Shown here in pieces: positions 11,722 to 63,794 of a stretch of 64,000 bases of DNA. The stretch spans positions 1,802,546-1,866,545 of the forward strand of contig NZ_CP032157.1 in NCBI RefSeq assembly GCF_003555545.1. Direction: 5' to 3'. A program made the translations under genes and the position numbers. Each line of letters opens with the position of its first letter. Position 1 is the stretch's first letter. The notes under the pieces were generated by a model, which saw only the letters and a list, made by a program, of their open reading frames with translations, did not search any database and was not told the origin of the DNA. Origin of the DNA: Paraflavitalea soli. GTDB lineage: Bacteria > Bacteroidota > Bacteroidia > Chitinophagales > Chitinophagaceae.

Positions 11722-11780
11722 GCACACCACCATTCACACAATAACATTACCGATAAATAATTATCCTTAAAAACGCTCAT

Positions 11781-37301: not shown

Positions 37302-37330
37302 AATAATTTCATTTTAGGTGTCAGTGACGG

Positions 37331-42381: not shown

Positions 42382-42474
42382 ACAATCAAAGTTACCGGGT
42401 GACTGCGAAAAAACAGTAATGCTTATTGATGTAGTTTTTACCGTTATTGGTAAGAAAATTCCGCTCACTTTCCC

Positions 42475-42547: not shown

Positions 42548-43153
42548 TTGCCTTCGGAGCGGCCGTTTAATGAGCAAGAGCTGCTGTCGCGCCTGGCGCA
42601 CGGCGATAAATCAGCGTTCGATACCCTCTACCAGTATTACGAACCCCGGTTAAGGCTATTCTTATACCCTTTCACCGCGTATGATACCGATACGCTCAAT
42701 TCCATTCTACAGGATGTTTTCCTCAAACTATGGCTTAAAAGGACCGACCTCGTGGGCATCGCCTTACTGGAGTTTTACCTGCAACGCATGGCAAAGAACA
42801 AGCTCCTCGACACCCTCCGGCTGAGTCAGATCAGGGAGCGACATGAATCCGGCTATGCCCGCCTGCAAACCGGCGCCGGCGATCCCACCACGGAACAATT
42901 ACAATTAAAGGAATACATGGACATCGCGCGGGAAGGCATGGCGCAAATGCCCGAACGCCGCCGGCTCATCTTCACCCTCTATATAATAAATGGACTGTCG
43001 CTCGATGAAGTGGCGGCGCAGCTAAACCTTTCCAAAGAGGTAGTGAAGAAGCAGCTCCAACTGGCCAAAGTATTTCTGAAAGAATATATTGCCGAAAAAG
43101 GAGACCTGCCGCTGACCATAGCGGGGCTGCTGCTCCTTTCCCTCGTTCAATAA
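42548..43153 (+). CDS. ECF-type RNA polymerase sigma factor
   Basis: A 201-residue sigma-70 family protein of the extracytoplasmic-function type. Region 2 spans about 10-90 (SAFDTLYQYYEPRLR, VFLKLWLKR). Region 4 spans about 130-180 (RRRLIFTLYIINGLSLDEVAAQLNLS, a helix-turn-helix). The start is TTG: an in-frame stop lies immediately upstream at 42545 and the conserved region begins eight codons later. The C-terminus ends in an unusual hydrophobic stretch (LTIAGLLLLSLVQ). The FecR-like anti-sigma gene follows after 56 bases, and an STN-containing SusC after that. This is the standard cell-surface-signalling arrangement in Bacteroidota, so it probably directs transcription of the genes to its right. 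Confidence 0.9.
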   Translation: MPSERPFNEQELLSRLAHGDKSAFDTLYQYYEPRLRLFLYPFTAYDTDTLNSILQDVFLKLWLKRTDLVGIALLEFYLQRMAKNKLLDTLRLSQIRERHESGYARLQTGAGDPTTEQLQLKEYMDIAREGMAQMPERRRLIFTLYIINGLSLDEVAAQLNLSKEVVKKQLQLAKVFLKEYIAEKGDLPLTIAGLLLLSLVQ

Positions 43154-44391: not shown

Positions 44392-44558
44392 TGATCAAAA
44401 CGGCCGGCATAAAAAATCCGGATGTGTTGACGCACCTCCGGATAAGATTTAGCTGGTTGAAAACAGAGCTGGTACTCATATTTAACAACCAAAACCTGGT
44501 AAAGGTATGCAAAAAACTGCTTACGGTGATCTCCTGCTCACTGTTGTTCTCCTATTGA
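44391..44558 (+). CDS. Short open frame (55 codons) overlapping the FecR stop and SusC start; possible coupling peptide
   Basis: An ATG overlaps the FecR stop codon (TAATG), and the frame runs 55 codons, ending at TGA inside the first part of the SusC gene in another frame. The arrangement would allow ribosomes to carry over from FecR toward the SusC start. It may equally be a chance frame; the peptide resembles nothing I know. It also contains the hairpin at 44416-44443. Confidence 0.25.
   Translation: MIKTAGIKNPDVLTHLRIRFSWLKTELVLIFNNQNLVKVCKKLLTVISCSLLFSY
44416..44443 (+). other. Stem-loop between fecR-like and susC-like genes
   Basis: ATCCGGATGTG (44416-44426) pairs with CACCTCCGGAT (44433-44443) with one mismatch around a six-base loop. 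It is not followed by a T run on the + strand, so a terminator is unlikely. It may be a processing or attenuation structure separating regulator from transport mRNA levels. Confidence 0.35.
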
Positions 44559-47500: not shown

Positions 47501-47905
47501 AGCTACAGAAAGCAATTGGGCCTGGACCCTTACTTCAGCCTGCAACTGGGAAAGATGCAAAACCTTGTCCTGCCGGCTGAAATAGCCAACAACCACTGGC
47601 AGCAACCAGGCGACCAGGTGCTTTATCCCAAATACACCACCGGCATATTGAACAGCTCCATCACCAATTCCGACCGGTATTATACAGATGCCTCTTATGT
47701 AAAGCTGTCCAACCTTGCCGCCTCCTACGACCTGCCGGCAAAGCTGCTGCAAAAGCTGCACATCCAGGCATGCCGGTTCAGCATCAGTGCGCAGAACCTG
47801 CTCACCATTACCTCGTACCGGGGTATCGATCCGGAAATACAAAGCATTAACGGCGGCTCGCCGATCGCCCGGACCATTGCTGCCAACCTGAACTTCACTT
47901 TCTAA
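44507..47905 (+). CDS. SusC/RagA-like TonB-dependent transporter with N-terminal STN signalling domain
   Basis: A 1132-residue outer-membrane receptor. The signal peptide is about residues 1-24 (LLLTVVLLLTGTFALAQ). An STN domain follows (about 26-95; LKQVFMAIKKQTGYVVFYN, PLEEVLQLVFTDQPVNYII), the part that contacts FecR-type transducers. Next come a CarboxypepD_reg-like domain (about 118-180), the plug (NVLQALEGRVAGLVM, PLYVIDGVPQG) and a long barrel ending in LNFTF. It should import a ligand and report its presence through the upstream FecR/sigma pair. SusD follows after 11 bases. It belongs to the same operon as the ABC and MutS-like genes, so the imported ligand or signal is presumably what those genes deal with. 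Confidence 0.95.
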   Translation: MQKTAYGDLLLTVVLLLTGTFALAQSVTLAGKDIPLKQVFMAIKKQTGYVVFYNQHMLTDTKPVTLSVTRMPLEEVLQLVFTDQPVNYIIQDKTIILSRNAAAKAAINITITIDPDLTVNGAIRADNGDALQGVSIRVKNTGNGTTTDAFGGFQLKKAAANAVIEVSMIGYETVEFIVVKQQDKFQLVPKSKVTFTADNSNPAMIYLTLTLNKSLSILDEAQVIAYGRTSRRYATGSIGTVKSEDIQKQPVMNVLQALEGRVAGLVMTPATGNSAAPIKLEIRGRNALNPNALTEPLYVIDGVPQGTLNVGVLSNAGINAGPVQAGRTNTAGESPLLFLNPRDIESIDVLKDADATAIYGARGANGVVIITTKKAKPGPTRFSINVTRGQTHIPKKLDLMNTAQYLAVRREAFRNDGITPDQYTAPDLTIWDQNRQVDWQDYFFAPGEQLSADASVSGGIANTNYIISGSYQSQQELMNQGGKTQRGSLAGNITHTSLDQKFQINFSSRIAVTSADAIAPGWFIHTPPNAPDVYNEKGEFNFVPYRGQYSSLFPFSELKRPSESKSNIINTDLRLSYEPVKGLTFSVNAGYNFTSNNNALYSPAASYDAAYGNLSSAIFGKSTANNWIVEPQLQYRSFIGGKGNLSVQVGGSLQNVKNEGLSTVSLGFPNDNLIRSPNNAAFSQLFEGSGEYKYVAAFGIINFRWDNKYIANLSARRDGSSRFGPGKQFGNFGSAGLAWIASEEEWMKAILPAWFTFVKLRGSYGITGSDAVDDYEFLTRWSNSVDLGGSNLLYDYNGTPAFNLVRPVNPDFRWETTQKLDVALNLGFLHDRINIEAGYYRKSSGNQLTNMSTPDYTGFPSIRANWPAVVRNEGWEISLNGRILDTKDWHLSVSFNMAINKNKLVEYPGLESSPYADLYAIGQSLSLKYLFHYTGIDPATGDFLLEDHNKDGSISFFSSVIPQTPQDDRYIVYNLDPKYTGGFGVQVGYKAFTLSSQFSYRKQLGLDPYFSLQLGKMQNLVLPAEIANNHWQQPGDQVLYPKYTTGILNSSITNSDRYYTDASYVKLSNLAASYDLPAKLLQKLHIQACRFSISAQNLLTITSYRGIDPEIQSINGGSPIARTIAANLNFTF

Positions 47906-47916
47906 AACCAACCGAC

Positions 47917-49371
47917 ATGCGAAATCAACCTTCTATACTGTTTGCCATGGCCCTCTGCCTGTTGACAGGCTGCAAAAAGCTGATCGAAATAGATCCGCCA
48001 AAGACCACCATCTCCACCGGACAATTGTTTTCCGACAATGCACAGGCAGAATGGGCGGTGGCCGGCCTGTACAGTAAGCTGATACATGGAACCGAATTTG
48101 CACTGATGAACGGCGCCGGCGAAAAGAACTTCGGCGCCGGCCTGTCCACCATCCTGGGAAGCCTTTCTTCCGATGAAATGTACAATGCAGATGGCCCCGG
48201 CCGGAGTGAACTGTATTACCTCAACATCAACCACCTTACCACCGCCAGGTCCATCATGCCCGGTTATGCCTGGAAATCTGCTTACAAGACGGTGTACGAC
48301 GCCAATGCCGTACTGGAAGGCCTGGCTGCCTCCACCACCTTGCTGGACAGTGTACGGAAAGAGCTGCGGGGTGAGGCGCTGACCCTGCGTGCTTTTGCTT
48401 ATTTCTACCTCGTCAACTTCTTTGGCGATGTGCCGCTGGCCCTCACCATCGACTATAGCAAAACCGGTGGCCTGTCGCGCTCCCCCGTAGCTAAAGTGTA
48501 TGAACAGATCACCAAAGACCTCGTGGAAGCAAAACCGTTGCTGGCATCCGATTTCTCAGTAGGCAAGGATGAGCGCGTGCGGGTGAACGCCTGGTTTGCA
48601 GAAGCCCTGCTGGCCAGGGTGTATTTGTATACCGGCCACTACCAGGAAGCAATGAACAGCGCCGGCAAAGTGATCGGGAAGACGGACTATTTCTCCCTCG
48701 AACAGGACCTGTCGAACGTGTTTACGGCCACCAGCCGGGAAGCCATCCTGCAACTGAAACCCAACCCGGAAAACAGCGGCTTCAAAAATGCCACCCCCGA
48801 AGGATATCTATTCCGGCACCAGTTGCTCACTGTTGCCTCCACCTATCGCTTCACCAACCAGTTGCTCAATGCGTTTGAAGCCAATGACAAAAGAAAAACC
48901 ACCTGGATGCTGGAAGATGGCGGCAGCTTCACCGCCTATAAATACACGTTGGGGCCAACCGATGCTGTGCAATACGGACCACAGCCACAGTACTACATGG
49001 TGATGCGCCTGGCCGAACTGTACCTCATCCGCGCAGAAGCATCCCTGCTGTTGTCGGAAGGCAACAAACAGGCAGCCATCAACGATCTCAATGCCCTGCG
49101 GCCAAGGGCCGGGCTGCTGCCCCTGCCGGCTACCCTGAGCGCTGCGCAGGTCACCGAGGCCATTGCCAATGAACGCCGCTTTGAATTGTTTGCCGAGTGG
49201 GGCCACCGGTGGCTGGACCTGAAACGGACCGGCAAAGCAAAAGCCGTTCTGTCACAAATAACCGCCAAGCAGCCCTGGGCAGGCGACTTCCAGTTGCTGT
49301 ACCCCATACCAGCCACGGAGATCATCAACAATAAAAACATCACCCAAAATCCCGGCTATGAAGTGCAGTAA
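47917..49371 (+). CDS. SusD/RagB-like outer-membrane lipoprotein
   Basis: A 484-residue SusD-family lipoprotein with lipobox LLTGC (Cys19). It opens with the family's typical KKLIEIDPPKTTIS segment, shows TPR-like helices (SAYKTVYDANAVLEGL, LRGEALTLRAFAYFYLVNFFGDVPL) and ends with the conserved NERRFELFAEWGHRWLDLKRTG region. It caps the SusC pore encoded directly upstream. The next lipoprotein gene overlaps its 3' end by 14 bases, which suggests translational coupling and joint action at the cell surface. Confidence 0.95.
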   Translation: MRNQPSILFAMALCLLTGCKKLIEIDPPKTTISTGQLFSDNAQAEWAVAGLYSKLIHGTEFALMNGAGEKNFGAGLSTILGSLSSDEMYNADGPGRSELYYLNINHLTTARSIMPGYAWKSAYKTVYDANAVLEGLAASTTLLDSVRKELRGEALTLRAFAYFYLVNFFGDVPLALTIDYSKTGGLSRSPVAKVYEQITKDLVEAKPLLASDFSVGKDERVRVNAWFAEALLARVYLYTGHYQEAMNSAGKVIGKTDYFSLEQDLSNVFTATSREAILQLKPNPENSGFKNATPEGYLFRHQLLTVASTYRFTNQLLNAFEANDKRKTTWMLEDGGSFTAYKYTLGPTDAVQYGPQPQYYMVMRLAELYLIRAEASLLLSEGNKQAAINDLNALRPRAGLLPLPATLSAAQVTEAIANERRFELFAEWGHRWLDLKRTGKAKAVLSQITAKQPWAGDFQLLYPIPATEIINNKNITQNPGYEVQ

Positions 49372-50101
49372 AATATTCCTCATCGTATTGACGGCCCTTT
49401 GTGCCGCTTGCGAAAAGCAGACTGTCAACAACGGGCAGCCCTTTACCTTCTCAGTCTTCAACGGCCTGAACGATGGCGTATTGTTGTATGGCAATTACAG
49501 CGGGACCCAACCTTTCACCTATAAGTACTCGCAAATGATCTTCAGCAGACAGATGTCCAAGGTCAGCTTTGGAACGCCGCAGGTGTGGGCCCGGTATTTT
49601 GCCTCCCCGGATACCCTGGCTAAAGATCAACCTGTATTCGATAAACGGTTCGATCTTGTCAATGGCAGATCCTACACCCTGTACCTGCTGGGCGAAAAGA
49701 CGCAGACAGATCACCTCTTTGTTGAAAACAAGTTCAGCCCCCACAAAACGGGCGACAGCCTCACGTACCTGCAGGTGGTGAACCTCAGCAACGACCAACC
49801 CATCAGTGTGAACATACAGGGCGAGGCCAACGGAAGCCTGATCAAAAACCTTCCGTACAAACAGGTGTCGTCCATCCTGGCCATCCCCGCCGGTCACAGC
49901 CGTGCCGCTTATGTGTTTGAATTCCGCGATGCCGCCAGCGGCGACCTCTTGTGGACAGAAGAGGTAACGGAGATCAACGGAGCGAACACCGATTTCAACC
50001 GTTTCCTCTACAGGAACTGGGCGATGATCTTCTCCGGTAAACGGAATGCATCGGACAACAACGCCCTGAAAATTACCAGGACATACTATCAGGAAAAATA
50101 A
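49358..50101 (+). CDS. Lipoprotein, DUF4397-like beta-rich domain (weak)
   Basis: A 247-residue protein with a lipoprotein signal (LTALCAAC, Cys18). The remainder is beta-rich without membrane segments. The segments FSVFNGLND and SLTYLQVVNLSNDQP, and the closing extended part, remind me of two Ig-like or DUF4397-like repeats, but I am not certain of the family. It overlaps the SusD gene by 14 bases and precedes the ABC ATPase by 13, so it is part of the unit and likely an accessory surface or periplasmic protein of the SusCD complex. Confidence 0.7.
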   Translation: MKCSKIFLIVLTALCAACEKQTVNNGQPFTFSVFNGLNDGVLLYGNYSGTQPFTYKYSQMIFSRQMSKVSFGTPQVWARYFASPDTLAKDQPVFDKRFDLVNGRSYTLYLLGEKTQTDHLFVENKFSPHKTGDSLTYLQVVNLSNDQPISVNIQGEANGSLIKNLPYKQVSSILAIPAGHSRAAYVFEFRDAASGDLLWTEEVTEINGANTDFNRFLYRNWAMIFSGKRNASDNNALKITRTYYQEK

Positions 50102-50114
50102 CCAGTAGAATTTT

Positions 50115-51047
50115 ATGAGTGCAATTGTAAGGGTAGAGAAACTCTCCCATAGGTATGCCAGTGCCTGGGCCATCCGCGATATCAGTTTCGAGATCAATAA
50201 AACAGGCGTTGTGGGCCTGTTGGGTTCCAACGGGGCCGGCAAATCGACCACCATGAACATCATGTGCGGCGTATTGAACCAGACCGAAGGCGAAGTGTTC
50301 ATCAACGGCATCGATAAGCGCGTCAATGCAAGGCTGGCCAAACAGCAGCTTGGCTTTCTGCCGCAAACCCCGCCTTTGTACACCGATTTCACCGTGAATG
50401 AATTCCTCACCTATGCCGCCGACCTGCGGGGCATGGAGAAGAAAACGATAAAGCAGGCCGTGGCCATTGCTATGGACCGCACCGGCATCACCCACTTCAG
50501 TGAGCGGCTCATCAAAAACCTGTCGGGCGGCTACCGGCAACGGGTAGGTATTGCACAGGCCATCATTCACCGGCCCAAACTGGTGATCCTCGATGAGCCC
50601 ACCAATGGACTGGACCCCAACCAGATCATCGAGGCGCGCAAGCTCATCAAAGAGATCGCCATCGATCACACCGTGCTGCTGTCGTCGCATGTGCTGTCGG
50701 AGATCAACCTGCTCTGCCGCGACATCATCATGATCGAAGGCGGCCGCATCGTATTTGCCGACTCGATGGATGCTTTCAACAACTATGTGCAGCCGCAGTC
50801 GATGCTGGTGACCATGGAAGTGATACCGCCTGAATCCGAGCTGCTGAAAGTGCCCGGCGTTACCAAAGTGCAATACCTCTCCAACACCCAATGCCGTATC
50901 TACTTTTCCGGCTCTGCAGACATCACCCAGGTGTTCATCAAAGAAAGCGTGCAGCGCAACTGGCGGCTGAAAGAGATCGGGTTGGAGAAGTCGCTGTTGG
51001 ACGATGTGTTCAAACAATTATCTCACCAGTCTCAATTTGCACGCTGA
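50115..51047 (+). CDS. ABC transporter ATP-binding protein (GldA-like)
   Basis: A 310-residue ABC ATPase. Walker A is GSNGAGKST (37-45, K43), the signature LSGGYRQ (136-142), Walker B LVILDEP (D160, E161) and the H-loop LLSSHVL. A C-terminal extension of about 85 residues is typical of the ABC-2 export class, which includes GldA, CcmA and NatA. The next gene starts two bases later and encodes a membrane/periplasmic GldF-GldG-type fusion, so the ATPase should energise that subunit and possibly its paralogue further on. I do not name it gldA, because its neighbours are quite unlike the gliding-motility locus. Confidence 0.93.
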   Translation: MSAIVRVEKLSHRYASAWAIRDISFEINKTGVVGLLGSNGAGKSTTMNIMCGVLNQTEGEVFINGIDKRVNARLAKQQLGFLPQTPPLYTDFTVNEFLTYAADLRGMEKKTIKQAVAIAMDRTGITHFSERLIKNLSGGYRQRVGIAQAIIHRPKLVILDEPTNGLDPNQIIEARKLIKEIAIDHTVLLSSHVLSEINLLCRDIIMIEGGRIVFADSMDAFNNYVQPQSMLVTMEVIPPESELLKVPGVTKVQYLSNTQCRIYFSGSADITQVFIKESVQRNWRLKEIGLEKSLLDDVFKQLSHQSQFAR

Positions 51048-51049
51048 CC

Positions 51050-53347
51050 ATGAAGAACACTTTGAAAATAGCCAGGGCTGAATTGTTGAACCTGTTCTAT
51101 TCGCCCGTAGCCTGGCTTGTGATCCTGTTCTATTGTATCGTCTGTGGAGTGGCCTTTACAGAACCGATGACCCTCTATTACCGCTTGCAGAAAGTGTTTA
51201 TGGAAGCAGAGCCCCACTGGACGGGCTTTGATGGAACAGGATTGACGGCCGAGCTCACCGGCACCGTAATGCGTAAACTGGCGGCCAATATATTCCTGTT
51301 CATCCCTTTGCTCACCATGGGCACCATCAACCGGGAGGTCAATGCAGGCACCATCAAACTGTTGTATTCTTCTCCCATCAGGACCCGGGAAATAGTGCTC
51401 GGTAAATACCTGGGGCTACTATCCCTGATGGTCACCCTGATGCTGATCACGACGGTCTTCCTGGTGTCGGCTTTCCTGATCACCCTCAGCCCGGAGATCA
51501 ACCACCATTTTGCGGCGCTGCTGGGCATCTTCCTGCTGGCCAATGCTTACATCGCGATAGGCGTATTCATATCCTGCCTCACCAACTACCAGATCGTGGC
51601 CGGCGTACTGACCTTTGCCGTTTTCTTTATGCTCAATACGATCGGAGGCCTCTGGCAGCAGTACGACCTGTTCAGGGACTTCACCTGGTTCCTGTCGATC
51701 TCCGGAAGGACCTATTATTTCCTGAACGGGCTGATCTCTACCCGGGATATTTTTTACTTCGCATTGATCACCGTGCTCTTCCTGGGCTTCGCCATGATCA
51801 AACTGCGCAGCACGCAGGAGTCCAAGCCCTGGACAGTAGCTTTCAGCCGTTATATGGCACTTTTTGTAGCTGTGCTGTTGGTGGGTTATTGCTCCGGACG
51901 GCCCGGCCAGGTGAAATACTGGGACCTTACCCGTCGAAAGATCAACACCATCTCCACCAGCACGCAAAGTGTGTTGAAGGAGCTGGATGGGTCACCCCTC
52001 ACCGTTACCCTGTACACCAACCTGTTTGGCGCCAACGCGCTGCACGGGCTGCCACAAAACAGGAACTTTTACCTGTGGCAGTTCTGGGAGCAGTACCGGC
52101 GGTTCTATCCCAACATGCAGTTCCGGTTTGTGTATTACTACGATCATTATTCCGAAGATAGTACGATGTTCAGGATGCATCCTGCACTCAACATCGACCA
52201 GATCGCCGAAAAAGTGTCCAAAGAATTGGGCATCCGGAAATCCATTTTCATGCCGCCTGCCGCCATCCGCCGCACCATCGACCTGCACCAGGAAGGATCG
52301 CAACTGGTGATGCAACTGGCCTACAAAGGCAAAACGACCTGGCTGCGCACTTTCCGGGATAATGCCGTGTGGCCTAACCAGGATTGTGTGGCAGGCACCA
52401 TCGCCCGGCTGACGAGAGACCGCGTGCCCAAATTCCTGTTTACCGCCGGGCATTATGAACGTAATCCCTGGAAAGGAAACGAAAGAGATTATGGCGAACA
52501 TGTGTTGAGTGTTGCGTCGAGGACCAGCCTCATCAACCTGGGCATGGACGCCGATACGATCAACCTGCTGACAGCCGATATACCTGCCACCACAGCCGCG
52601 CTGGTGATCGCAGACCCGAGAACCGAGCTGCAGCCCGCAGAACAAAAGAAGGTCAACGCCTGGTTGCACAAAGGCGGTAATGCGCTGGTCCTTGCCGAAA
52701 TGAAGAAACAGTCCATCATCAATCCCTTGCTGCGCCCCTTGGGCGTGCAGGCAGACATGGGTACCATCGTGCATCCCAACGAGCATGAAATGCCGCACAT
52801 CCTGTTGGGGCAGCTCACGCATGCCGGTTCCACCCTGGCGATGGAGAGAGATATGTACGATTACAGTCGTGGGGCCGTCAAAGTGTTGAACAATCCCATC
52901 GAAGGGGGCGTCAACCTCCGTTATACGGCAGACTGTGGCTACCAGGTACAGCCCCTCATCAGCATCAAGGGCAATGACAAGACCTGGATAGAGAATGGCA
53001 TACTGGTGGTGGACTCCGCAGCACCTTCTTTTTCCGCTGCTGAAGGAGATATCCGGCTGGACCAATACACCCTGGGCGTTTCCCTCACGCGTGGTAAACA
53101 ACGGATATTGATAACCGGTGATGCCGACATGCTCACCCCTTTCAGAAGACGGGTAGGCAACGCCTTTTACAGTTGGCTGCTGGACAACCGCTACCCGTTC
53201 TACGCCAACTATCCCGGCCCTACAGACAAGTTCTTTACCGCCCGGCCGGTTACCATCAAGGTGTTAAAAGTGGTATACACGTATGTGGCGCCTGCCCTTG
53301 TGCTGCTATTCGCTATTGTTTTACTGGTAAGAAGGAAGAGAAAATAA
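51050..53347 (+). CDS. GldF-GldG fusion-type ABC-2 permease with large periplasmic domain (copy 1)
   Basis: 765 residues from the ATG at 51050. A longer in-frame ORF begins at 50891 inside the ATPase gene, but MKNTLKIARAELLNLFYS is the conserved start, two bases after the ATPase stop. Residues 1-270 form the six-helix ABC-2 permease (GldF-like): first helix WLVILFYCIVCGVAF, a conserved INREVNAGTIKLLYSSPI cytoplasmic motif, and IVAGVLTFAVFFMLNTIGG. A further helix (YMALFVAVLLVGY) leads to a GldG-type (ABC_transp_aux) periplasmic region with LDGSPLTVTLYTN, FTAGHYERNPW and a redox-independent Rossmann-like core. A C-terminal helix (VAPALVLLFAIVLLV) and RRKRK end the protein. In Flavobacterium GldF and GldG are separate proteins. 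The gene is paralogous to the one at 55999. Confidence 0.9.
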   Translation: MKNTLKIARAELLNLFYSPVAWLVILFYCIVCGVAFTEPMTLYYRLQKVFMEAEPHWTGFDGTGLTAELTGTVMRKLAANIFLFIPLLTMGTINREVNAGTIKLLYSSPIRTREIVLGKYLGLLSLMVTLMLITTVFLVSAFLITLSPEINHHFAALLGIFLLANAYIAIGVFISCLTNYQIVAGVLTFAVFFMLNTIGGLWQQYDLFRDFTWFLSISGRTYYFLNGLISTRDIFYFALITVLFLGFAMIKLRSTQESKPWTVAFSRYMALFVAVLLVGYCSGRPGQVKYWDLTRRKINTISTSTQSVLKELDGSPLTVTLYTNLFGANALHGLPQNRNFYLWQFWEQYRRFYPNMQFRFVYYYDHYSEDSTMFRMHPALNIDQIAEKVSKELGIRKSIFMPPAAIRRTIDLHQEGSQLVMQLAYKGKTTWLRTFRDNAVWPNQDCVAGTIARLTRDRVPKFLFTAGHYERNPWKGNERDYGEHVLSVASRTSLINLGMDADTINLLTADIPATTAALVIADPRTELQPAEQKKVNAWLHKGGNALVLAEMKKQSIINPLLRPLGVQADMGTIVHPNEHEMPHILLGQLTHAGSTLAMERDMYDYSRGAVKVLNNPIEGGVNLRYTADCGYQVQPLISIKGNDKTWIENGILVVDSAAPSFSAAEGDIRLDQYTLGVSLTRGKQRILITGDADMLTPFRRRVGNAFYSWLLDNRYPFYANYPGPTDKFFTARPVTIKVLKVVYTYVAPALVLLFAIVLLVRRKRK

Positions 53348-53359
53348 ATAAACAGCAAC

Positions 53360-54652
53360 ATGTTATTACAAACGGACGATCAAACTATGGAGGACTTACG
53401 CCTGTTTGCCAGGCGCGAGCAACCCGGTATCTACGATATTTACAACAACACATTCACGCGCGGCGGCGAAGCGGTGCTGGAAGAAATGTTCCGCAACCCC
53501 TTGTCCGACCGGGAGCAGATCATCGCGCGCTCATCCGTCATAGCCGCCTTTGCCAAACTGGGCACTACGTTTCCCTTCCGGCCCGTGTTGCTCGACAACA
53601 TTGAAAAGTACCTGTCGCAGTCCGCGCAGCACCGCGACGGGCAAAGAGGCACACTGGGAGAAAAAGAGATCGCTGCCGGCGTGATGGCCGCCATCGAATT
53701 GTTGCATGCCGTGCGTGACTTTGTAGAAAAAGGCGATGCCGTGAAAGTGGAAGGGCTGTCGCAGCAGCGCAAGAATATGACCTTGTTGTTACAGGACGAG
53801 GGGTTGCAGCCGGTGTTCAACGAAAAGCCCGGCGCCAAACTTTCCTATGCAGCTATCACCGCCTACGATATACTGGTGCGGGTGCGCGAGCGGAAGAAGT
53901 TCATCGACGTGCTTCACTTCATCTACCTCGTGGATGTGTACATTTCCGTAGCCACCATGGCCAACAAGCACCAGTTCATTTTCCCCGTCGTGCACACCGG
54001 TCCCGGGCGCGTAATCAACGTGCAAGGCGTTTTCCATCCTGCTTTGAAAGCACCCATTGGCAATGACATCAGGATGGATGGCCAGCGCTCTGTCGTATTC
54101 CTCACCGGCGCCAACATGGCCGGCAAGTCTACCTTCCTGCGCTCGCTCAGCATTGCCGTTTACATTGCGCACATGGGCTTTCCCGTAGCGGCCAAAGCCA
54201 TGGAGTTCTCCATCATGGACGGTCTTTACACCACCATCAACCTGCCCGACAACCTCGGCATTGGCGCCAGCCATTTCTATGCAGAAGTGCTGCGCGTAAA
54301 GAGAATAGCCGTCGAACTGAACGCAGGCCGCTCCATCTTTGTCGTGTTCGATGAACTGTTCAGGGGTACCAATGTAAAAGATGCGCACGAAGGCACCGTG
54401 GAGATCACCCGGGCATTTGCCCGGAAAAGCAACAGCCTGTTCATCATTTCCTCCCACATCGTGGAAGCCGCCAATACCCTGAAGCAGCAACCGACGATCG
54501 GCTTCTATTACCTGCCCACCCGCATGAACGGCAACACACCGGAGTACACCTACACCTTGCAGGAGGGCGTCACCGACGACCGGCATGGCATGATCATCAT
54601 TCGCAATGAAAACATCCTCGACATTTTAGCAGCAGGAAAAAAGAACGGTTAA
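53360..54652 (+). CDS. MutS-related ATPase without mismatch-recognition domains (copy 1)
   Basis: 430 residues, half the length of MutS. The N-terminal part resembles the MutS core/lever domain III (YDIYNNTFTRGGEAVLEEMF versus LLNKTxTxxGxRLL). The C-terminal part is the domain V ATPase: Walker A TGANMAGKST (K256), the signature-like SHFYAEVLRV, Walker B FVVFDELFRGTN (D331, E332) and an H-loop in IISSHIVEA. Domain I (with its Phe-X-Glu mismatch reader) and connector domain II are absent, as is the Smr nuclease of MutS2. The Walker A differs from the usual TGPNMGGKST at two positions. It starts 12 bases after the GldFG fusion and is followed two bases later by a paralogue, so the two probably form a heterodimer serving the transporter. 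Function unknown. Confidence 0.88.
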   Translation: MLLQTDDQTMEDLRLFARREQPGIYDIYNNTFTRGGEAVLEEMFRNPLSDREQIIARSSVIAAFAKLGTTFPFRPVLLDNIEKYLSQSAQHRDGQRGTLGEKEIAAGVMAAIELLHAVRDFVEKGDAVKVEGLSQQRKNMTLLLQDEGLQPVFNEKPGAKLSYAAITAYDILVRVRERKKFIDVLHFIYLVDVYISVATMANKHQFIFPVVHTGPGRVINVQGVFHPALKAPIGNDIRMDGQRSVVFLTGANMAGKSTFLRSLSIAVYIAHMGFPVAAKAMEFSIMDGLYTTINLPDNLGIGASHFYAEVLRVKRIAVELNAGRSIFVVFDELFRGTNVKDAHEGTVEITRAFARKSNSLFIISSHIVEAANTLKQQPTIGFYYLPTRMNGNTPEYTYTLQEGVTDDRHGMIIIRNENILDILAAGKKNG

Positions 54653-54654
54653 TT

Positions 54655-55971
54655 ATGAACTTCACCATAGACAGACAATCCCTCGATGAACTGAACCTGA
54701 TGGGCAAATTCCGCAGCGGATCAGTGTATTTTCTTTTCAATAAAGTAAAGACAAGAGGCGGCGAACAGCTATTGGACCAGTTGTTCAGCACACCCCTGAC
54801 CGACGAAGAAGCGATCAACCAACGCGTGGCCATGTTCCGGTTCTTCCGGCAGGCCGGCCTGGAGTTTCCCTTCGATGCCGGCCAGGTAGGACTAATGCGG
54901 GAATACATCGATGCTGCCGGCAGCCAGGGGCGCGTTGCTACACACCTGCACGTGGTGCTGAAGAAAACATTGTCCAGCCTGGCCCGCGACGGGCAGTACA
55001 AAGTATTGATCCAGGGTTTGCAGGCCACCATCGTCACCCTCAAAAAATGCCACGCCTTTGCCGCTATGCTGGCACAAATGGGCGGTGCTTATGGCGAAAG
55101 GGCCAAAGCCATTCAGAACATCCTCGAAACGCCGGCCCTCATGCAGTTGATCGGAACAGATATCTACAAAGCGATCCCGGTAAAGACCATCGCTGCTTAT
55201 GACCACCTGCTGAAAACAAAAGCGAACAGGTCCATCAAACAAGTGCTTCATTTCATTGCCGAGATCGATGTCAACATCACTGTCGGCAGTGTGGCCGCAG
55301 AGAAAGGCTTCACCTGGGCGCATGCCCTTCCCCGGCAGGCCAATACGTTGTCGGCCACCAACCTCAAACATCCCTGCATCGACAAAGCCATTGGCAATGA
55401 CCTGCAGATGGCCGTCGACCGCAACGTCATCTTCCTCACCGGCGCCAACATGGCCGGCAAGTCTACCTGGATGAAGACCATCGGCATCTCCCTGTACCTC
55501 GCACACATCGGTTTCCCCGTGGCCGCGCAATCGATGGAGTTCTCTATACGTGAAGGCATTTATTCCAGCATCAACGTGGCCGATAACATTGCGCTGGGCT
55601 ACAGCCATTTTTATGCGGAAGTGGTGCGCGTAAAGAATGCCGCCGAGGCCACCAGCACCGGCAAATACCTGCTGCTGATGTTCGATGAGTTGTTCAAAGG
55701 CACCAATGTAAAAGACGCTTACGATGGCACACTGGCCGTAACAGAAGCCTTTGCGGAATACAGGAACTGCCTGTTCATCGTGTCTACCCACATCATCGAA
55801 GTGGGGGAGGCCCTCAAAGCTAAAAAGAACATCCGGTTTACCTACATGCCTACCATCATGGAAGGATCGGTGCCGCAATACACTTACCGGTTGCAGCCCG
55901 GCATTACCGAAGACCGGCAGGGTATGTTGATCATCAGGAATGAAGGCATCCTTGAACTGATCGGTCACTAA
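54655..55971 (+). CDS. MutS-related ATPase without mismatch-recognition domains (copy 2)
   Basis: 438 residues, paralogous to the preceding gene over the full length and starting two bases after its stop. The core-like N-terminal region (KVKTRGGEQLLDQLFSTPL) precedes the domain V ATPase, with Walker A TGANMAGKST (K269), SHFYAEVVRV and Walker B LLMFDELFKGTN (D344, E345), and an H-loop in VSTHIIEV. All ATPase residues appear intact, so both copies should be active; divergence between them elsewhere suggests a heterodimer. No DNA-mismatch or nuclease domain is present and no signal peptide, so it acts in the cytoplasm. Flanked by GldFG fusions on both sides of the pair. Confidence 0.88.
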   Translation: MNFTIDRQSLDELNLMGKFRSGSVYFLFNKVKTRGGEQLLDQLFSTPLTDEEAINQRVAMFRFFRQAGLEFPFDAGQVGLMREYIDAAGSQGRVATHLHVVLKKTLSSLARDGQYKVLIQGLQATIVTLKKCHAFAAMLAQMGGAYGERAKAIQNILETPALMQLIGTDIYKAIPVKTIAAYDHLLKTKANRSIKQVLHFIAEIDVNITVGSVAAEKGFTWAHALPRQANTLSATNLKHPCIDKAIGNDLQMAVDRNVIFLTGANMAGKSTWMKTIGISLYLAHIGFPVAAQSMEFSIREGIYSSINVADNIALGYSHFYAEVVRVKNAAEATSTGKYLLLMFDELFKGTNVKDAYDGTLAVTEAFAEYRNCLFIVSTHIIEVGEALKAKKNIRFTYMPTIMEGSVPQYTYRLQPGITEDRQGMLIIRNEGILELIGH

Positions 55972-55998
55972 AGAACCAAACTTATTTATTCCAACGTC

Positions 55999-58317
55999 AT
56001 GAAAATGATCTGTAAAATAGCCAGGGCCGAGTTCAGGAACCTGTTTTATTCGCCCATTGCCTGGCTGATCCTGCTGGTATTCTACATCGTATCCGGGTTC
56101 CGGTTTGTAGATCCCCTCGTGGATATAGCGCGGGTACAGGAAGCCAACCTGGAGACCAACCCCACCTGGGATGGATTTCCAACAGCCCTTTCGATCGCCA
56201 TCTTCATCGCCCCGATAAAAAGCGTGCTGGAAAAACTCTACCTGTTCATCCCGCTGCTCACCATGGGCGTGATCAACCGCGAAGTGAACGCCGGCACCAT
56301 GAAGCTGCTGTATTCATCGCCCATCCGTGTGCGCGACATCGTGCTGGGCAAATACCTTGGCCTGCTCGTCTTCAATGTCATGGTGCTTGCCATCGTAGCC
56401 ATCCTCTTTGCTACCGGGTACTGCACCATCATCCATGCCGAAGTGGCCTGGTACCTCGCCATCCTGCTGGGGTTCTTTTTACTGTCTGCCGCGTTCATCG
56501 CCATCGGGCTGTTCATCTCCAGCATAACGCAGTACCAGGTAGTGGCCGGCATCCTCACCTTCGTGGTATTTTTTATCCTCGAGAACCTGCAGGAAGTATG
56601 GCAACAGTATGATTTCTTTCGCGACCTCACCTACTTCCTCGCCATGACCAACAAGGCCGAAGAGATGATCGGCGGGCTGATCACCACCAGCAATGTGCTG
56701 TACTTTGTGATCATCATTGTGATGTTCCTGGCTTTTACCCTCATCAAACTGCGGAGCACGCAGGAGTCGAAATCCTGGAAAGTATCCTTCGGGCGCTACA
56801 CACTGGTGAGCCTGGTGACGCTGACCATCGGTTATGCGTCCTCGCGTCCCGGTTATGTGGGTTACCTCGACCTGACGCGCGACCGGCTGAACACCATTCA
56901 TCCTGCCATGCAGCAGGTGTTGAAAGAGCTGGACGGTTCGCCGCTGACCATTACCCTGTACACGAACCTGCTTGGCAAATCATCGCCCATGGATGGCCTC
57001 CCGCGCAGTCGCAACAAATACATCTGGCTATACTGGGAAAAGTTTGTGCAGTTCTACCCGCATATCCGGTACCGGTTCGAGTATTATTACGACGTCAACG
57101 AATCGAACCAGGAGATCATGGCCTCTTTCCCCGGTAAAACGGTAGACCAGGCAGCCGCCACCATGGCGGAACTGTACGATGTGGACGTCAACAGTTTTAA
57201 AAAACCGGAAGCAATCAGGAAGCTCGCCAACCTGCAACAGGAAGACAACCTCGGCCTGCTGATGGAACTGGAGTACAAAGGCCGGAAACAATTCCTGCGC
57301 ACCTACCCCGACACTAAGATATTCCCCGAGCAAACGCACGTAGCGGGCACCATCAGACGGCTGGTACGGCCGGCCAACCCGGCCATCTATTTCACCACCG
57401 GGCATTATGAACGCAGCCCGTTCAGGAATGGTGAGCGCGAGTATGGGCCCAACACCAATTACAAACAAAGCAGGTATGCCCTGCTCAATATGGGTGTTGA
57501 TGTGGACACCGTTTCCCTGGCGCGGCAAAACATCCCGGCCAATACAGCCTTCCTCGTAGTAGCTGATCCGAAATCGGCGCTGGACACCACAGAGCAGCGG
57601 AAGATCATCGACTACCTCGACAAAGGCGGCAATGCCATCTTATACGGTGAACCCGGCAAGCAGGGCATGCTCAACCCACTGTTGCAAACGATCGGCGTCA
57701 CCCTCGACCCCGGCACCATCGTCATTCCTGACAAACACGACCTGCCCCATACGTTCAATACCAGCGTTACGAAGACCGGCACCCATATGGCCAACGAAGA
57801 AATGCTGTTCAAAGCGGTGCAGAAAGACAGGACAGGCAGCATCTACCTCTCCGGTGGCGCCAACATCAGTTTCCGGCCGGTAAACGGATTTACCATCGAA
57901 ACGATCTGCGACAAAACACCGGAACGCGATGGATGGATCGAGAACGGCGTGTACACCGGCGATTCGGCCGCCCCTGTTTTTTCAGCCGCAGAAGGTGACG
58001 TGAAGCGATCCACGTTTGTGATCGGTATCCGGTTGAAACGGACCATCAACGGCAAAGAACAAAGGATCATGGTGTCCGGCGACGCCGACTTCATGACGCC
58101 GAGGCGCGTCTATGGCGGAGACATCCGCAATGGCATGTTCAGTTGGATGCTGTACAACGACTATCCCGTTTATACCAGCTACCCGGACCCCATTGATACC
58201 AAAGTGACAATAGGCTTTGATGCAGCGCGCGCGCTGTATATAGTGTATGTCTACATCATACCGGCCATTGTTCTGTTGGGGGCCACCTTATTATTGATCA
58301 GGCGAAAAAGAAAATAA
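55999..58317 (+). CDS. GldF-GldG fusion-type ABC-2 permease with large periplasmic domain (copy 2)
   Basis: 772 residues, with the same architecture and many identical motifs as the protein encoded at 51050. The N-terminal permease (WLILLVFYIVSGFRFVDPL, INREVNAGTMKLLYSSPI, VVAGILTFVVFFIL) is followed by the GldG-type periplasmic region (LDGSPLTITLYTN, FTTGHYERSPF, VSGDADFM), a C-terminal membrane helix (YVYIIPAIVLLGATLLLI) and the basic tail RRKRK. The two copies probably assemble as a heterodimeric membrane unit driven by the single ABC ATPase gene at 50115. It lies 27 bases after the MutS-like pair and seven before the thioredoxin gene. Confidence 0.9.
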   Translation: MKMICKIARAEFRNLFYSPIAWLILLVFYIVSGFRFVDPLVDIARVQEANLETNPTWDGFPTALSIAIFIAPIKSVLEKLYLFIPLLTMGVINREVNAGTMKLLYSSPIRVRDIVLGKYLGLLVFNVMVLAIVAILFATGYCTIIHAEVAWYLAILLGFFLLSAAFIAIGLFISSITQYQVVAGILTFVVFFILENLQEVWQQYDFFRDLTYFLAMTNKAEEMIGGLITTSNVLYFVIIIVMFLAFTLIKLRSTQESKSWKVSFGRYTLVSLVTLTIGYASSRPGYVGYLDLTRDRLNTIHPAMQQVLKELDGSPLTITLYTNLLGKSSPMDGLPRSRNKYIWLYWEKFVQFYPHIRYRFEYYYDVNESNQEIMASFPGKTVDQAAATMAELYDVDVNSFKKPEAIRKLANLQQEDNLGLLMELEYKGRKQFLRTYPDTKIFPEQTHVAGTIRRLVRPANPAIYFTTGHYERSPFRNGEREYGPNTNYKQSRYALLNMGVDVDTVSLARQNIPANTAFLVVADPKSALDTTEQRKIIDYLDKGGNAILYGEPGKQGMLNPLLQTIGVTLDPGTIVIPDKHDLPHTFNTSVTKTGTHMANEEMLFKAVQKDRTGSIYLSGGANISFRPVNGFTIETICDKTPERDGWIENGVYTGDSAAPVFSAAEGDVKRSTFVIGIRLKRTINGKEQRIMVSGDADFMTPRRVYGGDIRNGMFSWMLYNDYPVYTSYPDPIDTKVTIGFDAARALYIVYVYIIPAIVLLGATLLLIRRKRK

Positions 58318-58324
58318 CAAACTC

Positions 58325-59182
58325 ATGAAAAAAGTATTCTTTCAATTACTCGCATTATTCCCTTTGTGTGCGGCAGCGCAGCAGCACTACGAGATCAAAG
58401 GAAAAGTAGGCAACTACAACGATCCTGTTAAGGTATACCTCGCTTACAGGATCGACGGCAACCTGGTGCTCGATTCGGCCCGCATGGAACAGGGATCCTT
58501 TCAATTTAAAGGCCAGGTGCCTTCCACCCTGGTAGCAGCACTTGTTTTAGACAGGGCATCCGTCGGTATCACGAACATCAGTAATCTTACTGCCGACATG
58601 GCGCAGTTTTATCTCGGTAATGAAAGTATTACCGTTACCAGTGCCGATTCCATGAAAAACATTACCATATCCGGCTCCCGCATCAAGGATTCTGTCATAG
58701 CAGCGCAAAAACTGGCGGCACAAAAACTGGCTGAGGAAATGAAAAACTTTGAACCGGGCAAAATGGCCCCTTTGTTCGCCCAGCCCGATTCCAGCGGCAA
58801 AATGATCAACCTGTCTGCCTTCCGTGGGAAAGTAGTGCTGGTGGATTTCTGGGCAAGTTGGTGCATGCCTTGCCGCCAGGAAAATCCCCACCTTGTAAGA
58901 GCTTACGAAAAGTTCAAACAAAAAGGATTCGAGATATTCAGCATATCGGTAGACGATGCCGCACGCAGAGCAGACTGGCTGAACGCCGTCCGGACAGACA
59001 ATATGCAGTGGACGAATGTCAATGACCTGAAAGGAGGTGATAAAAATGAGGCGGCCCTGTTGTACCACGTACAAACCATTCCACAAAGTTACCTGCTCGA
59101 TCGCGACGGGAAAATACTGGCCGTCAACCTGCGGGGCGAAGACCTGGATAAAAAATTGGAGGAACTGTTTTCCAACCACTAA
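58325..59182 (+). CDS. TlpA-like periplasmic thioredoxin-fold protein with DUF4369-like N-terminus
   Basis: 285 residues. The signal peptide MKKVFFQLLALFPLCAAAQQ directs it to the periplasm. An N-terminal beta-domain (YEIKGKVGNYNDPVKVYLAY) is of the DUF4369 type. The C-terminal thioredoxin fold has the active site WCMPC (C180, C183) and the cis-Pro region TIPQSYLLDRDG. It is shorter than typical DUF4369-TlpA proteins of about 370 residues, with a reduced middle part. The role is likely disulfide reduction or isomerisation of periplasmic proteins, perhaps of the GldG-like domains or a secreted substrate; the partner is inferred only from neighbourhood. It is embedded in the operon, seven bases after the second GldFG gene and nine before the protease gene. 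Confidence 0.9.
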   Translation: MKKVFFQLLALFPLCAAAQQHYEIKGKVGNYNDPVKVYLAYRIDGNLVLDSARMEQGSFQFKGQVPSTLVAALVLDRASVGITNISNLTADMAQFYLGNESITVTSADSMKNITISGSRIKDSVIAAQKLAAQKLAEEMKNFEPGKMAPLFAQPDSSGKMINLSAFRGKVVLVDFWASWCMPCRQENPHLVRAYEKFKQKGFEIFSISVDDAARRADWLNAVRTDNMQWTNVNDLKGGDKNEAALLYHVQTIPQSYLLDRDGKILAVNLRGEDLDKKLEELFSNH

Positions 59183-59191
59183 ACAACACTC

Positions 59192-60115
59192 ATGAAAAAA
59201 TACGGATTGTTGGCAAGCCTGTACCTGATTGCACAAAGTAGTCTTTTCGCGCAGGAACCAGCCTATATCAATTACAATGCTGCCCTCGGTGGCGCCCTGA
59301 CCTCCTTCGTACAAAAAGCAGATACCGCTTTGTGGAGCGCCTCACTCGCTTCCCTGCAAAAGAGCGCCCGGACGGTACAGGAAGAAGCGCCGGTGGGACT
59401 GCCGCTGGAGAAAAAAGGCACTACCAAAAAAGCGTTTACCGACGAAGCCCTGTATGCCAACCGGAAAAGTGGAGTAGTGGTCATCGGCAATCTCCGCAAG
59501 GGTACCGCAGGCAACAACATCAACTTCGAAGTAAAAGGAACTGGTTTTTTCATCACCAAAGAAGGACACTGCGTTACCAACTTTCACGTGGTGCAGGAGC
59601 TGTTGCAAAGCACTCCTCCCACGGATGGGCTGGTGTACTTTGTGATCACCGAAGATAGGAAGGTCTATGCGATCAACGGTCTGCTGGCGTATTCAAAGAA
59701 CAACGACCTGGCAGTGCTCAGCATCAACGGCGGCGGGCAAGGGTTCAATGCCATTCCGCTCGGTCAACCGGCCGTGGTGGGTGCGCCGGTATACTGTATC
59801 TCGCACCCTGCCGGGGAATTTTATTATTTCAGCAAAGGAATGGTGGCCCGCAACTTAATTCGTGACAGTACTGCCTTGGGTGTTACGTACAGCGCCAGCG
59901 GCAAAACACCCATCCGGATGGAAGTCACTGCCGATTACGGCGGCGGCTCCAGCGGTGGTCCCCTCATCGATCAATACGGCAACCTGGTGGGCATCGTGGC
60001 CACCACCAGTACCATTTACCTGAATGAACAACTGCCGCAGGGAGTACGCCAACATCCGCAAATGGTGATAAAGGATGCGGTACCAGTGAAAGCATTGACA
60101 GGCTTGTTGCAATAA
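59192..60115 (+). CDS. Secreted trypsin-like (S1C/DegP-type) serine protease
   Basis: 307 residues with a signal peptide (MKKYGLLASLYLIAQSSLFAQ). The S1-like fold carries a complete triad: His132 in VTNFHVV, Asp172 in NNDLAVL and Ser254 in GGGSSGGPL (GSSGG in place of the common GNSGG). There is no PDZ domain after the catalytic part, unlike DegP. About 70 residues of poorly conserved sequence lie between the signal peptide and the protease fold. It is expected in the periplasm or outside the cell. Being in the transporter operon, it might process an imported or exported peptide, or another protein of the unit; this is inference. Confidence 0.88.
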   Translation: MKKYGLLASLYLIAQSSLFAQEPAYINYNAALGGALTSFVQKADTALWSASLASLQKSARTVQEEAPVGLPLEKKGTTKKAFTDEALYANRKSGVVVIGNLRKGTAGNNINFEVKGTGFFITKEGHCVTNFHVVQELLQSTPPTDGLVYFVITEDRKVYAINGLLAYSKNNDLAVLSINGGGQGFNAIPLGQPAVVGAPVYCISHPAGEFYYFSKGMVARNLIRDSTALGVTYSASGKTPIRMEVTADYGGGSSGGPLIDQYGNLVGIVATTSTIYLNEQLPQGVRQHPQMVIKDAVPVKALTGLLQ

Positions 60116-60127
60116 AAACAATTAACC

Positions 60128-60895
60128 ATGACAGCTATGCTCGGCGGCTTTGCCACCATCCTCATCATTACATTGCTGCGCTATTTTTTGATCGCAGGCC
60201 TGGTATTCCTGGTCGTTTACCAGTGGCTGCCTGCCGTGCTGCACCGCAGTAAGATCCAGCAGCGCACCGCTGCCCGGAAGGATTTCATCCGGGAGATCGC
60301 CCATTCCGTGTCTTCCAGTATCCTGATAGCGATCGCCGTCGTCATCGCCTTGTCTGGCAGCATACGGCCTTTCACCCACATCTACGCCGGCATCAACGAT
60401 TACCCGTTGTGGTGGATACCCGTGTCCTTGTTGCTTTCACTCGTTGTACACGATACTTATTTTTACTGGATGCACCGCCTACTACACCACAAGCGGCTAT
60501 TTAAGATCACCCATGTCGTGCACCACCAGTCCACCAATCCATCGCCCTGGGCAGCGTATTCCTTTCATTTTATCGAAGCGTTCCTGGAAGGGGCCGTCGT
60601 GATCGTGCTGGTGTTTGTGTTGCCGGTCCATGCCGTCACCCTCATGCTTTTTGCCCTCACGTCTTTCGTGATCAATGTATACGGACACCTCGGCTATGAG
60701 ATCATGCCCGAAGGGTTCAGGCGATCAGTCCTGTTCGAAGTATTGAACACTTCCACGTACCACAACCTGCACCATTCAAAGTTCAAAGGAAATTATGGGC
60801 TGTACTTCCGGATCTGGGACAGGTGGATGGGCACCGAAAACCCTGAATATGTAAAAGAGTATGATAAGATACAACAGCGAAGATTTGGGCGCTGA
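60128..60895 (+). CDS. Membrane di-iron fatty-acid hydroxylase / sterol desaturase family protein
   Basis: 255 residues with about four membrane helices (for example LIITLLRYFLIAGLVFLVVY). The histidine motifs of the fatty-acid hydroxylase superfamily are HDTYFYWMHRLLHH, HVVHHQSTNP and YHNLHH; together they would bind two iron atoms. Such enzymes hydroxylate or desaturate lipids in the membrane. Last gene of the packed run, 12 bases after the protease gene and followed by two hairpins. It may modify a lipid needed by, or carried by, the transporter, or a lipid tail; the substrate cannot be told from sequence. Confidence 0.9.
   Translation: MTAMLGGFATILIITLLRYFLIAGLVFLVVYQWLPAVLHRSKIQQRTAARKDFIREIAHSVSSSILIAIAVVIALSGSIRPFTHIYAGINDYPLWWIPVSLLLSLVVHDTYFYWMHRLLHHKRLFKITHVVHHQSTNPSPWAAYSFHFIEAFLEGAVVIVLVFVLPVHAVTLMLFALTSFVINVYGHLGYEIMPEGFRRSVLFEVLNTSTYHNLHHSKFKGNYGLYFRIWDRWMGTENPEYVKEYDKIQQRRFGR

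Positions 60896-61145: not shown

Positions 61146-63794
<2,649 letters not shown>

Follow-up and report, generated by a model that had tools for sequence, protein, structure and literature searches.

We analysed a 64,000-nucleotide stretch of contig NZ_CP032157.1 from Paraflavitalea soli (hereafter, the window). The subject is a row of five genes encoding an ATP-binding cassette (ABC) ATPase, a GldF-GldG fusion protein (GldFG1), two MutS-like ATPases (MutSa and MutSb) and a second GldF-GldG fusion protein (GldFG2). An earlier note on this DNA had reported this order at positions 50115-58317 and spacings of 2, 12, 2 and 27 bases between the genes, and both were verified; all five genes lie on the + strand. 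The five genes are the inner stretch of a longer operon that the earlier note did not describe, with genes for a sigma factor, FecR, SusC, SusD and a lipoprotein on the 5′ side and for a TlpA-type protein and a protease on the 3′ side. Comparison with other genomes supported a conserved unit made up of the MutS pair and GldFG; its order and content recur in other genera and families.

Genes and domains of the operon

The first of the five genes (50115-51047, +) encodes a GldA-like ABC ATPase of 310 amino acids (aa; Pfam ABC_tran, 1.6e-32). GldFG1 (51050-53347, +; 765 aa) consists of an ABC-2 membrane domain, a periplasmic GldG/IFT52-like (GIFT) domain and a C-terminal transmembrane helix, as judged from Pfam, hydropathy and an AlphaFold model. 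MutSa (53360-54652, +; 430 aa) is a MutS core ATPase with domains III and V by Pfam, and MutSb (54655-55971, +; 438 aa) is its partner MutS core ATPase by Pfam and by the tree described below. GldFG2 (55999-58317, +; 772 aa), the second ABC-2/GldG fusion, was recognized by Pfam and in a search of the same genome; it is 46% identical to GldFG1.

The operon begins with a gene for an extracytoplasmic function (ECF) sigma factor (42548-43153, +; Pfam Sigma70_r4_2 8e-11, Sigma70_ECF 5e-08). The start given is a TTG, the earliest in the open reading frame (ORF), and the real start is possibly internal. It is followed by a FecR-type anti-sigma factor (43210-44391, +; FecR 9e-17, FecR_C 5e-16), a SusC/RagA TonB-dependent outer-membrane transporter (44507-47905, +; NCBIfam TIGR04056, 652.9 bits, above the cut-off of 368.25) and a SusD/RagB lipoprotein (47917-49371, +; SusD_RagB 1e-24, SusD-like_3 2e-25). 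A DUF4397-like lipoprotein (49358-50101, +; DUF4397 8e-07, 30.1 bits, just under the cut-off of 30.6) has homologues at the equivalent position in other units. Downstream of GldFG2 are two companion genes, which encode a TlpA/AhpC-TSA thioredoxin-like protein with DUF4369 (58325-59182, +; AhpC-TSA 2e-21, DUF4369 3e-14) and a trypsin-like protease (59192-60115, +; Trypsin_2 8e-23). From SusC onward, adjacent genes overlap or are separated by fewer than 30 bases.

MutS proteins are textbook DNA-repair ATPases, and MutS2 acts on ribosomes. In both MutSa and MutSb, Pfam detected MutS_V (E 1e-26) and MutS_III; the latter scored 2.5e-06 for MutSa (28.4 bits, below the cut-off of 34.1) and 3.3e-09 for MutSb. 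At E≤0.001, these were the only MutS domains found, and there was no match to the recognition (MutS_I), connector (MutS_II), clamp (MutS_IV) or Smr domain. This agrees with the earlier note, which had described the proteins as lacking mismatch recognition, and it weakens the suggestion in the same note that the pair clamps DNA. The ATPase motifs that the note had named were all located in both sequences: GANMAGKST, FDELF[RK]GTN, SHFYAE and a histidine, which we take, by comparison with MutS, to be Walker A, Walker B, the signature and the H-loop, respectively. All NCBIfam models for this superfamily scored below their cut-offs for MutSa and MutSb: MutS gave 125.8 and 124.5 bits (cut-off 480), mutS2 gave 59.1 and 66.3 bits (cut-off 400) and KamC (NF052383) gave 92.9 and 105.4 bits (cut-off 300). 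The closest solved proteins by sequence were MSH2, MutS and MSH3, and MutS2 (7qv3, 8qpp) was also among the solved relatives.

Pfam found ABC2_membrane_2 and ABC_transp_aux in both GldFG proteins. The equivalog models for the gliding proteins scored below their cut-offs, GldA with 266.3 bits for the ABC ATPase (cut-off 402.6) and GldF with 83.0 and 76.5 bits for the two GldFG proteins (cut-off 288.5). The AlphaFold model of GldFG1 had a mean predicted local distance difference test score (pLDDT) of 88.2 and a predicted template modelling score (pTM) of 0.84. Its best matches in the PDB were the IFT52 N-terminal domain, chains of the oligosaccharyltransferase complex, which we presume to be OST48, and chains of NosDFY (5fmr and 5fms were among the entries); the model also resembles the structure of the PmtCD exporter. 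Because IFT52, oligosaccharyltransferase and NosDFY were matched, the modelled GldFG1 fits a NosY-like membrane domain joined to a GIFT domain. NosDFY relays ATP-driven movement to the periplasm instead of carrying a solute.

Recurrence of the unit in other genomes

We laid out 74 loci with a MutS-like gene, including the window. The loci were picked by their MutS matches and not by GldFG, and 13 of them come from one genome (G006) and are not independent. A tandem MutS pair or a fusion was present in 59 of the 74 loci, and the other 15 had no adjacent pair. GldFG was encoded directly upstream of 55 of these 59 pairs. MutS pairs lying mostly away from GldFG had been named beforehand as the outcome that speaks against a joint unit, and the opposite was seen. 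An ABC gene preceded GldFG in 54 of the 55 cases; the locus without it (L164) lies at a contig end. The four pairs with no adjacent upstream GldFG are L068, at a contig edge, L154, L168 and L174. L174 is rearranged, with GldFG and ABC genes close by on the other strand.

In the 57 units in which GldFG precedes MutS, the same-strand run contained SusD in 56, ABC in 56, SusC in 52, FecR in 31 and the sigma factor in 24, some of the stretches stopping short of the SusC, FecR or sigma positions. The order SusC-SusD-(lipoproteins)-ABC-GldFG-MutSa-MutSb is conserved in two families. Of three Bacteroidales contigs matched, the two whose flanks are complete (L067, L069) hold the same parts in a different order, with the SusC, SusD, DUF4843 and PKD_2 genes downstream. 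Two GldFG genes were found in 11 of the 57 units: in seven, both lie upstream of MutS (in one of these, L052, one copy precedes the ABC gene), and in four they flank the pair. Thus, the placing of the MutS pair between two GldFG proteins, emphasized in the earlier note, is true for the window, but it is a minority form, and the flanked five-gene order was dropped as the defining arrangement because only 4 of 57 units show it.

The distribution of the unit is patchy. Within the family, 32 of 394 genomes, from 10 of 101 genera, have unit-type MutSb (profile E≤1e-120), as do 14 of 151 in a second family. Among those 14, five turned out to carry a MutS gene on its own, with no GldFG (L159-L163), and in one (G821, L166) a single MutS gene follows GldFG. 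An even sample of the phylum gave matches at E≤1e-60 in 16 of 395 genomes, with adjacent pairs in three, among the matches listed. Relatives known by name include at least Sphingobacterium faecale and three Bacteroidales metagenome-assembled genomes. In the family and phylum surveys up to four candidates were scored per genome, so that copy numbers are lower bounds.

In the P. soli genome (one contig, 8.44 Mb) we found eight MutS_V genes and two units, against 105 SusD matches. One unit is that of the window; the other, a SusC-SusD-lipoprotein-ABC-GldFG-MutS-MutS set, lies within 936-955 kb. Separate genes encode a full-size MutS (frame of 896 aa) and a protein of MutS2 size (frame of 708 aa). 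Single, more distant MutS-like relatives exist away from GldFG; for example, a single 437-aa relative in this genome adjoins a gene that we read from its sequence as dihydroorotase-like. The same genome encodes a MutS-like protein of 595 aa that has hydrophobic segments near its N-terminus (L011:8143-9930, +). Matches in frames of about 600 aa occur in many relatives, and the type is possibly a membrane-bound MutS family. At L162 (4333-14316, -), SusC, SusD, GH92 and GH125 genes are followed by a lone MutS-like gene in the same orientation.

The unit is expanded in one genus (g3). Genome G630 (one contig, 7.8 Mb) contains 112 MutS matches at E≤1e-60 and 90 GldFG matches, and G006 contains 50 and 36, respectively. 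The 102 listed of the 112 matches in G630 form 56 MutS groups (46 of two and 10 of one), and 55 of these 56 groups lie within 6 kb of GldFG; in 500 random placings, the mean was 5.8 and the maximum 12. Because the association recurs in other genera and families and exceeds these random placings, it is above chance. Four GldFG matches in G630 have no MutS within 8 kb, among the matches listed. At least 150 SusD genes are present (150 of 198 candidates scored), and if each group has one SusD, about 28-37% of the G630 SusD genes accompany the module. This unit is estimated to make up roughly 8% of the genome (56 groups of 11.25 kb in 7.8 Mb), where 11.25 kb is the median span of 43 units from several genomes and is not specific to G630. 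Full layouts from G630 cover two units (L148, L149). Among the matches listed for G630 and G006, at least one copy is interrupted by a stop, and truncated copies also occur. Gain and decay of the unit may both be under way in this genus.

The rest of the window contains other systems. Hybrid polyketide synthase/nonribosomal peptide synthetase (NRPS) genes occupy 982-18632 (+) and encode a 3579-aa protein with ketosynthase, acyltransferase, ketoreductase, condensation and adenylation domains and a 2283-aa NRPS protein; an ORF of 5502 aa (18731-35239, +) comes after them. A further SusD-like/TonB-receptor pair (35898-40330, -) lies on the strand opposite to the unit, and a gene for a DUF885 protein (40603-42468, -) is oriented divergently to the unit's sigma factor gene. 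Past the protease gene are genes for a fatty acid hydroxylase-family protein (60128-60895, +) and a PPDK_N/PEP-utiliser protein (61167-63794, +). Three other units (L180, L181, L185) also have a homologue of the hydroxylase gene upstream, on the opposite strand.

Co-divergence and companion genes

For distances, tree and residue counts, we used the 54 of 57 units that have two MutS genes encoding more than 400 aa, or a fusion; L166 (one MutS gene), L170 (pair split by another ORF) and L182 (split MutSb) were omitted. The Walker A Lys and Ser-Thr, the Walker B Asp-Glu, the signature Ser and the H-loop His were invariant in 54 of 54 units for each of MutSa and MutSb. The residue after DELF is Arg in the a-type and Lys in the b-type, in 52 of 54 units each. 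The key residues of the ABC ATPase were likewise unchanged in all 53 units aligned. Since the ABC gene is present and the ATPase is intact, the MutS pair is no substitute for the ABC motor, and this alternative from the earlier note was rejected.

Pairwise distances were strongly correlated within three sets of proteins: MutSa-MutSb, 0.93; ABC-GldFG, 0.89; and SusC-SusD, 0.95 (40-54 units per comparison). Across the sets, the correlations were 0.48-0.75, and the highest value in 200 shuffles for each comparison was 0.24. When the sample was thinned to 35 units, the pattern persisted (0.41-0.66 across sets). These distances are read as three two-protein sub-complexes with a shared history. The parts have diverged to different degrees, the median identity between units being 24% for SusC, 49% for MutS and 58% for ABC.

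The MutSa and MutSb genes overlap, with a median gap of -4 bases (49 units). Natural MutSa-MutSb fusions occur in six units; five of these loci (L147-L151) were chosen as fusions, and 6 of 54 is consequently no frequency. The model of the L149 fusion, built from an alignment of the six fusions, matches MutS and MSH structures by fold (pLDDT 75.8, pTM 0.58; the relative placing of its halves is unreliable). MutSa and MutSb very probably work as a pair, and we suppose that this pair is an obligate cytoplasmic heterodimer. Their branching is best explained by one old duplication followed by mirrored branching, with which the sequence tree is consistent.

Downstream companions were defined as genes on the same strand with gaps of less than 300 bases. 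We scanned 44 of 57 companions with Pfam; those omitted were four lipoproteins from Bacteroidales, two genes of the window and seven others that come late in the operon or extend past the stretch. The scan gave Peptidase_S41 in nine companions, Peptidase_M16 in eight, Peptidase_S9 in two (both in L064) and single cases of Met-zincin, Trypsin_2 and Beta-lactamase. Thioredoxin was found in four of the 44, among the 25 listed of 59 companion families. A peptidase or beta-lactamase-family companion was present in 21 of the 35 units with a scanned companion, or in 20 of 35 without the beta-lactamase family; a thioredoxin-like label given to one GH2 protein in this count was disregarded. As a control, 20 of the 105 SusD places in the P. 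soli genome were hand-picked for open frames of 471-542 aa. Companions were present at 15 of these 20 loci (up to four per locus; 39 proteins in total). They were glycosidases, lectins and others, with no peptidase family at E≤1e-12; a control scan at E≤1e-5 listed 25 of 72 families. Because five unrelated peptidase types occur at one place, a peptide or protein ligand is suggested, and we consider such a ligand slightly more probable than not. The SusC and SusD sequences were dropped as a guide to the substrate, as their nearest solved entries are mixed.

Proposed working, alternatives and known systems

We propose that the five genes belong to a SusC-SusD (SusCD)-linked acquisition system, most likely for peptides or small proteins, and encode its half in the inner membrane and cytoplasm. 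SusC and SusD would carry the ligand across the outer membrane with TonB energy and would signal through FecR to the ECF sigma factor. Companion proteases and thioredoxins in the periplasm would degrade the ligand. The ABC ATPase would power a GldFG dimer. Through mechanical transmission or transport, the periplasmic GIFT domain of this dimer would act on either the ligand or some other protein of the envelope. In the cytoplasm, the ATP cycle of the MutSa-MutSb heterodimer, probably without DNA, would remodel or gate the inner part of the machine. Substrate class and transport direction are our deductions from the gene content. As a whole, a SusCD-linked peptide or protein acquisition system with a second, MutS-type ATPase is a tentative reading, and our confidence in it falls slightly short of an even balance. 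Contact between MutS and ABC-GldFG is a more doubtful supposition. A bolder reading, in which the MutS-core heterodimer works off DNA as a cytoplasmic clamp or power-stroke motor that pulls a polypeptide or other polymer inwards past ABC-GldFG, as a second, unrelated ATPase engine, seems rather unlikely to us.

Several observations weigh against the acquisition system or parts of it. The partial correlation of MutS was 0.38-0.59 with ABC/GldFG versus 0.42-0.57 with SusC/SusD (40 units). MutS is not closer to ABC/GldFG than to SusC/SusD, and therefore direct contact with GldFG gains no special support. The MutS pair of L154 has no ABC or GldFG gene in the 19 kb around it; there, a LytTR response regulator, the MutS pair and an M16 peptidase are encoded in a row (11655-18003, +). 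The L068 pair has no SusCD in the subsequent 7 kb. The tree does not strictly group either MutSa or MutSb as a single clade: there are 5 and 6 label changes, at least four of them forced by well-supported branches, in a quick tree in which the pair members of L154, L168, L174 and L166 were labelled as single and inflate the number of changes. The exceptions are a Bacteroidales pair, the order of which may be swapped, L157, a few long branches and these members labelled as single. For the ligand, 22 of the 57 units have no downstream companion by the 300-base rule, 14 of the 35 companion-bearing units have no peptidase, the beta-lactamase family is not in itself a peptidase, and the companions of two units include glycosidases (GH95, GH2). 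Beyond the 300-base rule, and hence uncounted, control locus L202 has a same-strand 1045-aa ORF, 992 bases past SusD, that matches a tricorn-type S41 seed (2.3e-15); at L206, a match to the beta-lactamase seed lies about 6 kb downstream. The L202 match and the nature of the beta-lactamase family slightly lowered our expectation of a peptide or protein ligand and of the acquisition system as a whole. Two control stretches also contain thioredoxin-seed matches. Moreover, the 15 control loci are from one genome and the units from many, and kin units inherit companions by descent. Finally, the closest solved SusC/SusD entries do not single out peptides.

The MutS pair might instead be a KamC-like maturation or reactivation ATPase, which would load a cofactor or metal into an enzyme or carrier that the importer serves, or strip it out, with the transporter untouched; the unit would then acquire a protein- or peptide-bound cofactor. 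Both proteins gave a scored match to the NCBIfam KamC model, and ECF sigma/FecR control is typical for iron and cofactor receptors. According to a review (PMC9164220), MutS-like proteins occur in adenosylcobalamin enzyme operons, and a role in metalloprotein assembly has been proposed for them. However, the KamC scores are far below the cut-off, and neither a B12 enzyme nor another cofactor enzyme recurs among the 25 listed of 59 companion families. We regard this role as unlikely. It is less likely still that ABC-GldFG is an exporter that removes antimicrobial peptides or exports products, with the proteases degrading and MutS acting as a stress ATPase. ABC-2 families are mainly exporters, and the GldFG model matches NosDFY and PmtCD, but SusC and SusD, importers as far as is known, stand in the same-strand run of nearly every unit, and PADLOC has no defence model for MutS or GldFG proteins. 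A defence system was rejected for the latter reason, the seven ABC ATPase model matches in PADLOC being taken as generic ABC similarity.

The extreme copy number in one genus and the patchy spread in the family would suit a mobile or duplicating block in which the MutS genes merely travel along, with no joint function with the transporter. We consider this very improbable in the face of the catalytic residues kept in all 54 pairs, the co-divergence of the unit proteins, the overlapping MutSa-MutSb frames and the equal parts in altered order in Bacteroidales; a scan of a viral collection confirmed no relative, and phage cargo was rejected on this result. A DNA function, with the pair handling DNA during repair or uptake across the envelope and lying in the operon for regulatory reasons only, has our lowest expectation. 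The closest solved relatives by sequence and by fold are MutS and MSH proteins. Against this, the pair lacks Pfam matches to the mismatch-recognition, connector, clamp and Smr domains, and the P. soli genome has separate genes for full-size MutS and a MutS2-size protein. Because there are about 56 MutS groups in G630 and 55 are beside GldFG, a repair role is unlikely, and we are confident that the role of MutSa and MutSb is not DNA repair.

If the acquisition system is real, it would give the MutS fold a role in the cell envelope and off DNA, in the form of a conserved, apparently active pair beside a SusCD receptor and a GldFG complex. It would also bear on the open question of GldA/F/G function, by providing a relative outside gliding with candidate substrates. 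Across units the receptors diverge while the inner parts stay similar, and one genome holds about 56 copies, each apparently with its own outer-membrane receptor. No description of a SusCD-GldFG-MutS unit was found in the literature searched (titles and the starts of abstracts); an earlier mention is possible. What is new would be the inner module of this SusCD locus, which is both unusual and conserved.

The unit resembles known systems in its parts. Like SusCD/RagAB loci with ECF sigma/FecR, it has a SusC above the NCBIfam cut-off, an adjacent SusD, lipoproteins (DUF4843, PKD_2 or DUF4397) and companion enzymes; unlike them, it adds the conserved ABC-GldFG-MutSa-MutSb module. With the GldA-GldF-GldG gliding complex it shares families and domains and, by fold, the ABC-2 membrane domain and the IFT52-like periplasmic GIFT domain, whereas its GldF and GldG are fused, its proteins fall below the GldA and GldF equivalog cut-offs, one ABC goes with one or two GldFG, and it is tied to SusCD and MutS. 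The pair has the core (III) and ATPase (V) domains and the ATPase motifs of MutS, MSH and MutS2, and two distinct subunits as in MSH2-MSH3 and MSH2-MSH6; it differs in its size of 430-438 aa, in that other MutS domains were not found and in scoring under every MutS cut-off. KamC, the lysine 5,6-aminomutase reactivase ATPase, is also of MutS type with, by its family name, a non-DNA role. In contrast, the pair scores 93-105 bits against a KamC cut-off of 300, no aminomutase gene was found in the window operon, and no lysine 5,6-aminomutase is among the listed companion families of other units. FusD and YddA are ABC proteins, and we know of no counterpart of GldFG and the MutS pair in the Fus system. 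The Fus/YddB-PqqL import system, as described in the main text of PMC6793856, combines a TonB-dependent receptor, an M16 protease and an inner-membrane transporter (FusD); that main text contains neither MutS nor SusD. The unit differs from it in having SusCD and not FusA; M16 occurs in 8 of the 57 units, and the window operon has Trypsin_2 and no M16. By analogy, Fus is the nearest functional parallel for the combination of receptor, protease and inner-membrane transporter.

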